Of a DNA stretch of 64,000 nucleotides, positions 13,806 through 18,369 are shown piece by piece. The stretch is from Kiloniella laminariae DSM 19542 (GTDB lineage Bacteria > Pseudomonadota > Alphaproteobacteria > Kiloniellales > Kiloniellaceae), in NCBI RefSeq assembly GCF_000374005.1, contig NZ_KB893157.1, positions 251,950 through 315,949 on the forward strand, given 5' to 3'. The notes beneath the pieces were generated by a model. It saw only the letters and a list, made by a program, of their open reading frames with translations, was not told where the DNA came from and searched no databases. How positions within the stretch are numbered: position 1 is the first letter of the stretch; every line of letters starts with the position of its first letter. A program made the position numbers and the translations under genes.

Positions 13806-15464
13806 ATGGTCAGAAAGATCCGGTTATACGGCGGGCTTGTACTATTTTTCTATCTCTTTACTCATCTTCTCAATCATGCCCTGGGGTTACATTCCATTGC
13901 CCTGATGGACGAAGGACGAAAGGCTTTTCTGGCGCTATGGCGCAATCCCCTTGGCACGTTGTTGCTCTATGGTGCGCTGGTCTCACATATGTCTCTGTCC
14001 CTGTGGGGGATATATCGCCGTCAGCATCTGCATATGCGGTTCTGGGAAATAGCACAGCTGTTGTCGGGGGCTATAATTCCTCTCCTGCTGGTTCTGCATG
14101 TGTTGGGAACCCGTTTTGCTCATGAGATTTATGGACTTGAAGATAACTATTATTACGAACTCTATGCGCTGGTGGTTTGGCGGCCGGATGCCGGGGTCCG
14201 GCAGGTAATCCTGTTTTTCCTTGCCTGGGGGCATGGCTGTGTCGGTTTGCATTACTGGCTGAGATACCGCCCAGGCTATCAGGCATTCAAGCCTTATGCC
14301 TTGTCATTGGTGGTGATACTCCCTGTGGTTTCCCTGGCTGGGTTCTATGTATCCAGCCTGAAAATAACGGCGTTGGCCGCCAATCCCCTCTGGATGGAAA
14401 ATTTCCTGGCTTCGGCACGCTTGCCTTCTGCGGAAGAGGTCGCGGATATCTACAGGTTTGAGACCTTGCTGCAGGTTGTTTTTATTGCTTTGTTACTTCT
14501 TACATTCTCTGCACGCTGGCTGCGCTACGCCTACCAACGGTGGCAGGGAACCTTTAAGGTAAGTTATCCGGATGGACGGGCTCTAAGGGCGATAAAGGGC
14601 ACAAGTTTGCTGGATGTTAGTCTGATGAACGGTGTGCCTCATGCATCGGTTTGCGGCGGTCGTGGGCGCTGTTCAACCTGCCGTGTCAGGGTCGGGCGCG
14701 GTCTGGACCATCTGCCAGGCATCGAACAGGATGAACAGAGAGTCCTGCAGAGGATCGGTGCTGCAGAAAACATGCGCCTCGCCTGCCAGACCTATCCGAT
14801 ATCAGATCTGGAGATTACGCCGCTTCTGCCTGCTGAAAGCGGGATGAACTCGGCCCGGCGTCAGATCAGTTCTATCGCGCAGGGGCAGGAGCGGGAAATT
14901 GCAATTCTCTTTGCCGATATCAGGGGCTTTACCAGTCTTTCTGAAAAGAAATTGCCCTATGATGTGGTCTTTATCCTCAACCGGTATTTTGAAGCGATGG
15001 GTACGGCGGTCGAAGAATCTGGTGGACGGCTGGACAAGTTTATCGGTGACGGTGTGATGGCACTTTTCGGGATTGACCGTGGTGTGGAAATCGGCTGCCG
15101 CAATGCCTTGAAGGCAGCCAGACGGATGGCTGAAAAACTGGACGAGCTCAATGCCCATCTGGCCCATGAATTGCCGCAACCTCTGCGGATCGGGATCGGG
15201 ATACATACCGGCCCGGTAATCGTTGGTGAACTGGGATGGGGGCAAGCAACCTCGATTACAGCCATCGGTGATGCTGTAAATACAGCCAGTCGACTGGAGA
15301 GCATGAGCAAGGAGCTGGGGGCTCAGCTGGTGATTTCACAGCCTGTTGCCGAAATAGCGGGTGGGGATTTCAGTGCTTTTCCCAAACAGCACATTCAAGT
15401 TCGCGGCAGAACTGGGGGCATGGATGTCTGGTCCCTGACCAGTGCCAAAGATCTCCCGCATTGA
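13806..15464 (+). CDS. Membrane class III adenylate cyclase with 2Fe-2S ferredoxin domain (CyaC-like)
   Basis: A 552-residue protein with three parts. Residues 1-245 contain about six helices rich in His (20, 24, 29, 61, 98, 143, 149), resembling the succinate-dehydrogenase-like diheme anchor of Sinorhizobium CyaC, which senses quinone redox state. Residues 248-342 form a plant-type ferredoxin with C283, C289, C292 and C327. Residues 362-545 are a class III cyclase: metal aspartates D371 (FADIRGFT) and D415 (DKFIGDG), adenine-contact pair K411/T485, and transition-state N492 and R496. All catalytic residues are present, so cAMP production is expected. The layout suggests electrons from heme or a soluble donor gate the cyclase. 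Confidence 0.88.
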   Translation: MVRKIRLYGGLVLFFYLFTHLLNHALGLHSIALMDEGRKAFLALWRNPLGTLLLYGALVSHMSLSLWGIYRRQHLHMRFWEIAQLLSGAIIPLLLVLHVLGTRFAHEIYGLEDNYYYELYALVVWRPDAGVRQVILFFLAWGHGCVGLHYWLRYRPGYQAFKPYALSLVVILPVVSLAGFYVSSLKITALAANPLWMENFLASARLPSAEEVADIYRFETLLQVVFIALLLLTFSARWLRYAYQRWQGTFKVSYPDGRALRAIKGTSLLDVSLMNGVPHASVCGGRGRCSTCRVRVGRGLDHLPGIEQDEQRVLQRIGAAENMRLACQTYPISDLEITPLLPAESGMNSARRQISSIAQGQEREIAILFADIRGFTSLSEKKLPYDVVFILNRYFEAMGTAVEESGGRLDKFIGDGVMALFGIDRGVEIGCRNALKAARRMAEKLDELNAHLAHELPQPLRIGIGIHTGPVIVGELGWGQATSITAIGDAVNTASRLESMSKELGAQLVISQPVAEIAGGDFSAFPKQHIQVRGRTGGMDVWSLTSAKDLPH

Positions 15465-15507: not shown

Positions 15508-15969
15508 TTACTGATTGCTTTTATATTTTTCGATGGCGCTTTTCAGCTCTGAATATTCATCACAGCCAAAAAAACAGCTTTCATCCAGAATTTCCAAACG
15601 CTCCTGCGCTTTGTTTGGCTGATTCATTTCCAGATAAAGTTCACCGAGATAGGCGTTGGCCCCGCGATGACGCGGGTTGATTTCCAGGGCCCTGGTGTAG
15701 TTACTCAGAGCGTCATCCTTGTTCCCCAGCTTGCGGAGGCTGTAGCCGAGCATGTTGAAGGCATCAGCATTTTTCGGGTCTTCCGCGGTAACTTTTGTCA
15801 GCAAGGGGAGGGCTTCGGTATATTTCTCGTCTTTGATAAGATTGACGGCTTCCTTGAGCTCGGGAGAGCTCTGACTATCCCAACCGCTCCCGGCTGCGGA
15901 GGCGGGAATACTGTATGCGGAGAGGCTTGCTGCAAAAAGCAGACCTAGGGCAGCGTGACGAAATTGCAT
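15508..15969 (-). CDS. Secreted TPR-repeat protein
   Basis: A 153-residue protein with a signal peptide (LGLLFAASLSAYSIPASAA) and about three TPR units, e.g. YTEALPLLTKVTAEDPKNADA and KDDALSNYTRALEINPRHRGA. TPR arrays bind peptides or partner proteins; this one should act in the periplasm. A CFFGC pair near the C-terminus could form a disulfide. It lies 125 bp downstream of recX on the same strand and ends close to the convergent cyclase gene. No specific role can be assigned. Confidence 0.75.
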   Translation of the reverse strand: MQFRHAALGLLFAASLSAYSIPASAAGSGWDSQSSPELKEAVNLIKDEKYTEALPLLTKVTAEDPKNADAFNMLGYSLRKLGNKDDALSNYTRALEINPRHRGANAYLGELYLEMNQPNKAQERLEILDESCFFGCDEYSELKSAIEKYKSNQ

Positions 15970-16832: not shown

Positions 16833-17150
16833 ATGTCTGCAAAAATCCAGGGGATGCAGGCACTGTTGGCAATGCGCAACATTGGTCCCAAGTCTGTACC
16901 CCAGCTGTTGGAAGTCGGGATAACCAGCCCGGATGACCTGCGAAATTATGGTACTGAAGAAACCTTTCGCCGCCTTTATTTTCGCTTTTGTGACGAGCAT
17001 AAATTCTCGCTGAATTATCTCTATGCGCTTGAAGGAGCAATTCTTGATTGTGACTGGCGTCAGGTGCCTGATGAGCGCAAAAAGTACTTAAAGCTTGTTT
17101 TGAAAGCCTCCAGAGAGAAGCGAGATAACGGGGCGGAGCCTGCAGTGTAA
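16833..17150 (+). CDS. TfoX/Sxy C-terminal domain protein
   Basis: A 105-residue protein equal to the TfoX C-terminal domain alone: AMRNIGPKSVPQLLEVGI is a helix-hairpin-helix-like start and LNYLYALEGAILDCDW the family's end motif. Full TfoX regulates competence in gamma-proteobacteria; stand-alone C-domains are common elsewhere and their role is unclear. Nothing nearby is competence-related. Confidence 0.75.
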   Translation: MSAKIQGMQALLAMRNIGPKSVPQLLEVGITSPDDLRNYGTEETFRRLYFRFCDEHKFSLNYLYALEGAILDCDWRQVPDERKKYLKLVLKASREKRDNGAEPAV

Positions 17151-17298: not shown

Positions 17299-18369
17299 TT
17301 GCAAGATAAGCGTTTCCAAGTCTTTATCAGCTCAACATATGAAGATCTTAAAGCGGAGCGGCGGGCTGTAGAGGATGTCATTATTAGTACTGGGGATTTT
17401 CCTGTTCAGATGGAGGGTTTTCCTGCTGCAGATGAAGACCAGTTTGAGTTTATCAAATCACTAATAGACCAATGTGATTACTATGTCCTTATTCTTGCTG
17501 GGCGTTATGGAACCGTTGCGGAGAATGGTCTTAGCTATACAGAGAAAGAGTATCGTTATGCTGTATCAAGGGGAGTTCCTGTTTTAGTAATGCTTCATGC
17601 TGAGCGAGGACGTATCCCTGCCGATAAAACAGAACAAACCGAAGTCGGGAAGCAACAGTTAGACAAATTTATTGCAGAGGCATCACAAGGGCGGATACGA
17701 AAAGATTGGAGCACAGTTGATGGCCTGAAATTAGCTGTCCGTGAAGCTTTAGATCATGCAAAAAGAACAAAACCCCGCATTGGCTGGGTGCGCGGGGATT
17801 CTGTTGCAAGTCTCGAAGTGTTGAACGAGCTTAATAAGTTAAGAAAAGAAAACGAAAATTTAAAAAACAACATTGGAAAATTAAAGATAAATATTCCAGA
17901 TCTTGAGATTCCAAATTGCAATGATGAAATTACTATTGATATTAATTTAAATAATATTTCAAAAAAGGGATATTATCGTGTTTCCGGGTGTGGGGCTAAA
18001 ATAAAATGTTCTTGGATTGGTTGTTTTTTTGTTTTCTATCGAAATTTTATTTGGCACATAGATGATCATCATAGTGGATATCGGTTAGATGAAGCTAAAA
18101 GTTGTATTCATATCGGCTCAGGGTTGGCTTCTGAAGTTTCTGGGGTAGATACAGGGGATTTTTTCAAAATTAGTAAGCTAACTTTTGGAATTCTCTTCAA
18201 CTACTATATTGAAGCGGGACTTATGAGAGCGGAGGGTTCTTCGGAGCCTTTCACAGAGTCTGCTAAACGGTTTGCACGGCGCCAAAGTGTTCAAAGCATA
18301 AAGTCCTCAGAAATTTTTTTAATTGAGGGTGGGGTAGAAATTAAAGAAGATGATGAAATTCCGTTCTGA
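17299..18369 (+). CDS. DUF4062 protein with unknown C-terminal domain
   Basis: A 356-residue protein starting at TTG 17299, 8 nt after GAAGGA. Residues 1-150 are a DUF4062 domain (FQVFISSTYEDLKAERRAV, then DYYVLILAGRYG and SYTEKEYRYAVSRGVPVLV), a TIR-like fold often found at the head of NTPase or effector proteins. A short coiled coil (about 170-195, NKLRKENENLKNN) joins it to a 160-residue C-terminal region I do not recognise, which has no transmembrane helix. The second half is much more AT-rich than its neighbours, and the flanking 130-150 bp are also AT-rich, which suggests horizontal acquisition. A role in defence is possible but is inference only. Confidence 0.72.
   Translation: MQDKRFQVFISSTYEDLKAERRAVEDVIISTGDFPVQMEGFPAADEDQFEFIKSLIDQCDYYVLILAGRYGTVAENGLSYTEKEYRYAVSRGVPVLVMLHAERGRIPADKTEQTEVGKQQLDKFIAEASQGRIRKDWSTVDGLKLAVREALDHAKRTKPRIGWVRGDSVASLEVLNELNKLRKENENLKNNIGKLKINIPDLEIPNCNDEITIDINLNNISKKGYYRVSGCGAKIKCSWIGCFFVFYRNFIWHIDDHHSGYRLDEAKSCIHIGSGLASEVSGVDTGDFFKISKLTFGILFNYYIEAGLMRAEGSSEPFTESAKRFARRQSVQSIKSSEIFLIEGGVEIKEDDEIPF

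Follow-up and report, generated by a model that had tools for sequence, protein, structure and literature searches.

In a group of 30 class IIIb cyclases, found in alpha- and betaproteobacteria and termed cluster 1 by Beltz et al. (eLife 2016; PMC4821796), a ferredoxin is placed between a six-transmembrane (6TM) anchor and the catalytic domain, as exemplified by Rhodopseudomonas palustris Q132R4. The anchors of this cluster are like the cytochrome b of fumarate reductase and succinate dehydrogenase, and four spaced histidines are predicted to hold two hemes. In the passages of Klein et al. 2023 (PMC10463352) that cite Wissig et al. 2019, Sinorhizobium meliloti CyaC (SMc01818) is described as a ubiquinone-responsive cyclase with two heme B groups that is activated on oxidation, and the legend to Fig. 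6 of that paper marks a distal heme B, a proximal heme B and a [2Fe-2S] cluster in the protein. The published catalytic residues are K410, T484, N491 and R495 (PMC10463352), and the published gene order is LysR-cyaC-TetR, with both the TetR protein CycR and the LysR protein binding CyaC. The soluble CyaC of Spirulina platensis (PDB 1wc0 and others) shares a class III cyclase domain with these proteins but is bicarbonate-responsive and lacks the anchor and the ferredoxin; only the names clash.

Here, we analyzed a gene for a protein of this kind in a 64-kb stretch (hereafter, the window) of a 4.44-Mb Kiloniella genome. A first-pass annotation had read it as a redox-to-cAMP device one step more complex than the described CyaC. 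The first part of that reading has good support from conservation, fold and homology, but the claim of novelty does not hold: a literature check showed that the TM-ferredoxin-cyclase architecture was described in 2016 as the cluster of 30 (PMC4821796), and S. meliloti CyaC already carries a ferredoxin with a [2Fe-2S] cluster (PMC10463352). The two papers together rule out a new architecture beyond CyaC. Judged from its sequence, the window protein is an ordinary member of the known CyaC-type redox cyclases.

Results

Domain organization of the window cyclase

The gene (13806..15464, + strand) starts with ATG, has no internal stops and encodes 552 amino acids in the order anchor-ferredoxin-cyclase, as deduced from the ORF listing, Pfam and a homologue alignment. 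Pfam placed Fer2 at residues 260-331, with an E of 4e-8 that passes the cut-off, and Guanylate_cyc at residues 361-544 (E 5e-22), and it recognized no domain in residues 1-250. The [2Fe-2S] ferredoxin domain (residues 252-339; 14559..14822, +) is nearest to ferredoxins of the ISC/adrenodoxin type: the top NCBIfam ferredoxin match was fdx_isc (ISC ferredoxin), a match (E 3e-10) that falls short of the curated cut-off for this model, and a search of PDB sequences returned ferredoxin 1i7h (E 1.4e-8). The four cluster cysteines were located at the residues given in the first-pass annotation, three of them in a C-x5-C-x2-C motif (C283, C289 and C292; 14652..14681, +) and the fourth at C327 (14784..14786, +). 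A linker (residues 340-360; 14823..14885, +) leads to the class III nucleotide cyclase domain (residues 361-544; 14886..15437, +). As had been claimed, this domain has every catalytic residue, with D371 and D415 for metal, K411 and T485 for adenine, and N492 and R496 for the transition state, as aligned with the published CyaC residues. An AlphaFold2 model of the full-length protein had a mean pLDDT of 84.8, with low values in the linker at residues 344-356, and its PDB matches were class III cyclases.

The membrane anchor and its predicted heme ligands

The anchor (residues 1-246; 13806..14543, +) showed six hydrophobic peaks in hydropathy analysis, at residues 10-28, 51-69, 82-100, 134-152, 165-183 and 218-236, in agreement with the six helices proposed for it earlier. 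Net charges are +2 to +4 for the short loops predicted to face the cytoplasm; for the long, outward-facing loops they are +1, -2 and -1, which is neutral or negative on balance. This distribution points to an N-in/C-in anchor, which would place the ferredoxin and the cyclase in the cytoplasm.

The anchor alone gave no sequence match in Pfam or the PDB. An AlphaFold2 model of the anchor alone (pLDDT 94.7, pTM 0.88) was compared by Foldseek with 350,542 PDB chains, and the top match was subunit C of the Wolinella succinogenes quinol:fumarate reductase (QFR; 2bs4, 1e7p), with a probability of 1.00, a TM-score of 0.57-0.58, 14-15% identity and a Foldseek E of 0.34, which is not significant alone. 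QFR subunit C was also found at rank 4; the same diheme subunit thus accounted for three of the top four matches, and the next different protein had a probability of 0.16. On the strength of the TM-score and these three matches, the modeled anchor resembles the QFR diheme subunit. The two share a helical bundle and a histidine pattern, whereas QFR subunit C has five helices rather than six and works alongside flavoprotein and iron-sulfur subunits in a respiratory enzyme, and the window anchor is fused to a ferredoxin and a cyclase. No genes for succinate dehydrogenase/fumarate reductase flavoprotein or iron-sulfur subunits were found among those adjoining the window cyclase.

Conservation was counted in one alignment of 81 homologues. 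The first-pass annotation had called the anchor His-rich, and what stands of this is exactly four invariant or near-invariant histidines, one in each of TM1 to TM4: H20 (TM1; 13863..13865, +) is present in 80/81 homologues, and H61 (TM2; 13986..13988, +), H98 (TM3; 14097..14099, +) and H143 (TM4; 14232..14234, +) are present in all 81. The remaining histidines of the anchor vary, with H24 kept in 76/81, H149 in 62/81 and H106 in 40/81. The four are predicted heme b ligands, and a pattern of two bis-histidine pairs is as expected for two b hemes. In W. succinogenes QFR, helices I/IV carry one pair of heme ligands and helices II/V the other, with H44 and H143 as distal ligands and H93 and H182 as proximal ligands. 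If this arrangement is mapped onto TM1-TM4 of the window anchor, H20 would pair with H98 (distal) and H61 with H143 (proximal). A crude depth estimate agrees with this pairing, placing H98 toward the periplasm and H61 and H143 toward the cytoplasm or in mid-membrane.

The cluster cysteines C283, C289, C292 and C327 are each found in 81/81 homologues. In the cyclase domain, D371, D415 and R496 are likewise kept in all 81, N492 in 78, T485 in 76 and K411 in 69, and the departures from K411 fall in divergent branches. The conservation of the predicted histidine and cysteine ligands in this alignment is far beyond chance. The sole row that lacks H20 is the Rhizobium etli CIAT 652 copy, which carries the annotation cyaCa; because its match begins at residue 37 and its N-terminus is unlike that of the near-identical CFN 42 copy, we suspect that this record is frameshifted. 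The reading frame of the window gene is kept within Kiloniella, at 94% identity in K. laminariae and 73-75% in K. spongiae, K. majae and K. litopenaei.

Comparison with cluster 1 and S. meliloti CyaC

The window protein has the architecture of cluster 1, as well as the two hemes predicted on four intramembrane histidines, and we saw no difference from the cluster described by Beltz et al. 2016 (PMC4821796). It combines a six-helix N-in/C-in anchor, four spaced intramembrane histidines, a membrane-proximal ferredoxin with four cysteines and a complete cyclase; a likeness of the anchor to succinate dehydrogenase/fumarate reductase cytochrome b is seen in its fold, at the E of 0.34 given above.

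For a comparison with CyaC itself, we used the protein of Sinorhizobium sp. C101, from a record in a plasmid collection (locus L105). Its gene sits between LysR and TetR genes as assigned by Pfam, and the protein aligns with the window protein end to end, from the anchor through the cyclase, with ∼39% identity over the tblastn match. When its start is set to give Lys 410, T484, N491 and R495 fall as in CyaC, and the window residues K411, T485, N492 and R496 are each numbered one higher than their published CyaC counterparts. Through this orthologue, S. meliloti CyaC and the window protein can be seen to share the order of 6TM anchor, 2Fe-2S ferredoxin and class III cyclase, the four anchor histidines and the K/T/N/R register. 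The two genes differ in their surroundings: S. meliloti cyaC is flanked by LysR and TetR (cycR) genes, whereas the window gene has a convergent TPR gene and RecX. The LysR and TetR genes that accompany the CyaC-CycR-Clr signaling complex of S. meliloti are absent beside the window gene, whose flanks encode a U32 peptidase, the TPR protein and RecX.

Distribution and natural module losses

In a sample of 385 alphaproteobacterial genomes, an anchor-bearing homologue was found in ∼107, or in 128 when cyclase-only matches were counted. Plasmid records with a homologue came from Rhizobium, Phyllobacterium, Azospirillum, Sinorhizobium, Tistrella and Methylocystis, and the betaproteobacteria were represented by one Burkholderia record. 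A named-genome scan with a single-sequence query found no chromosomal homologue in rhizobia.

Proteins that carry only part of the architecture were also detected. Two loci, from two families, encode anchor-ferredoxin proteins of ∼380 residues with the four histidines and four cysteines and no cyclase (L063:4900-6035, -; L064:4007-5137, +), and at both the next same-strand downstream gene encodes an MscS-type mechanosensitive channel. Ferredoxin-cyclase proteins with no match to the anchor occur in Leptospiraceae (L098), Polyangium (L100 and L101) and Hymenobacter (L107), as well as at L066 and L067. Since both partial forms exist, the ferredoxin appears to go along with either module, in the manner of an adaptor. 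At two further loci (L065, in genome G348, and L099), the anchor-ferredoxin part is not in the same reading frame as the cyclase part, which points to a frameshift, to a split gene or to errors in the sequence. The protein at L067 (2767-4278, +), from another genus, is soluble and has 504 residues; Pfam recognizes in it two CDGSH iron-sulfur domains together with a 2Fe-2S ferredoxin and a class III cyclase, and a Rieske domain at the C terminus. A full-length copy that is 87% identical is present in one more genome of that genus (L130; G441:C34:2893-4398). With three kinds of Fe-S domain, this cyclase is more unusual than the window cyclase.

A convergent TPR gene and other neighbors

The convergent neighbor of the cyclase gene (15508..15969, -) was characterized from the gene listing, Pfam and a homologue alignment. 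It encodes a TPR protein of 153 residues with a signal-peptide-like start and is predicted to be periplasmic. A cysteine pair, C132-x3-C136 in the window protein, is invariant in 51 rows of the alignment, with a spacing of x2 to x4. The linkage of the two genes makes the TPR protein a possible functional partner of the cyclase. In the 385 alphaproteobacterial genomes, we found 27 cases of a TPR homologue ≤5 kb from the cyclase, mostly within 320 bp; 18 of these are convergent, 4 divergent, 3 downstream on the same strand and 2 upstream on the same strand. Both genes were present in 79 genomes, only the TPR gene in 46, only the cyclase in 28 and neither in 232 (Fisher odds ratio 14, p 4e-26, a p value that overstates the association since the genomes are non-independent). 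Conserved synteny in close relatives accounts for part of this adjacency; that it has survived several rearrangements suggests that the two genes are functionally linked. That the TPR protein is a dedicated periplasmic partner of the cyclase in this branch of the family, such that one cAMP-producing sensor would read a periplasmic thiol/metal or envelope state together with the quinone pool, is a speculative extension that we consider doubtful. A search of the literature on such cyclases for a periplasmic TPR partner gave nothing relevant, and the CyaC papers examined do not mention one.

Farther downstream, the window contains a gene for a TfoX_C protein (16833-17150) and, adjoining it, a gene for a DUF4062 protein (17299-18369, +; Pfam E 3e-28) that has a TTG start in the listed ORF and no PADLOC match. 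Other contigs of the same genome carry four further genes with a class III cyclase domain (L001, L002, L004 and L005).

Discussion

We propose that the window protein is a class III adenylate cyclase of the CyaC type and under redox control, and we place the probability of this explanation as a whole at about 0.86. Under this proposal, the four histidines on helices 1-4 would hold two b-type hemes within a bundle like that of fumarate reductase, with H61/H143 probably toward the cytoplasm and H20/H98 toward the periplasm. The hemes would equilibrate with the ubiquinone pool, and the redox state would be passed to the cytoplasmic [2Fe-2S] ferredoxin and on through the linker to the cyclase dimer. 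An oxidized chain would yield more cAMP, as reported for S. meliloti CyaC, and the cAMP would act on CRP-family regulators; three strong HTH_Crp_2 matches (E < 1e-12) mark CRP-type regulators in the same genome. Heme B and the quinone response are attributed to the window protein by analogy with its relative CyaC, in which they have been demonstrated, and the sign of the redox response in this organism is likewise a prediction from that relative. An electron path from heme through 2Fe-2S to cyclase is an inference, for the window protein as in the CyaC papers examined.

The place of the ferredoxin in this scheme can be read in other ways. It might be an independent cytoplasmic input, served by a ferredoxin reductase or sensitive to O2/NO damage, in which case the cyclase would integrate two separate redox signals. 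The existence of anchorless ferredoxin-cyclase proteins (the six loci listed above) indicates that a ferredoxin-cyclase unit can work without hemes. However, the histidine and cysteine ligands are both essentially invariant in the full-length family, which suggests one coupled unit, and the anchor-ferredoxin proteins without a cyclase imply that anchor and ferredoxin also form a unit; we therefore regard an independent input as fairly unlikely. The Fe-S domain could also be mainly structural and relay a conformational change of the hemes with no redox change of its own. The CyaC literature examined gives no cluster potential, and the passages of Klein et al. (PMC10463352) on CyaC relate its redox regulation to heme B and quinone. 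A structural role would nonetheless tolerate some loss of the cluster, and the four cysteines are invariant along with the ferredoxin surface motifs, which makes this reading rather improbable.

Two alternatives concern the protein as a whole. A receptor role has been proposed for 6TM cyclase anchors (PMC4821796), and the window anchor could by extension bind a lipid or other ligand, with redox being secondary. We think this very unlikely for the present protein, as the four-histidine pattern and the diheme-subunit fold are specific to this cluster. PADLOC PycC models match the cyclase domain (best E 5e-27), which raised the question of a Pycsar-type phage-defense cyclase, but the matches are limited to the shared catalytic domain, the chromosomal context of the gene is stable across Kiloniella, and the neighbors inspected (U32 peptidase, TPR, RecX, TfoX_C and DUF4062) are not recognized Pycsar effectors and include no cyclic-nucleotide-gated effector. 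With a similarity confined to the catalytic domain, we rejected a defense function, whose probability we judge to be negligible.

As regards the CyaC-type redox cyclase that we favor, the natural losses of modules bear on whether the ferredoxin belongs to the electron path. With an anchor-bearing homologue in >100 of the 385 alphaproteobacterial genomes sampled, against the 30 sequences of 2016, direct sensing from quinone to cAMP would be widespread, and the mechanism of CyaC would be a general alphaproteobacterial signaling route rather than a rhizobial specialty.
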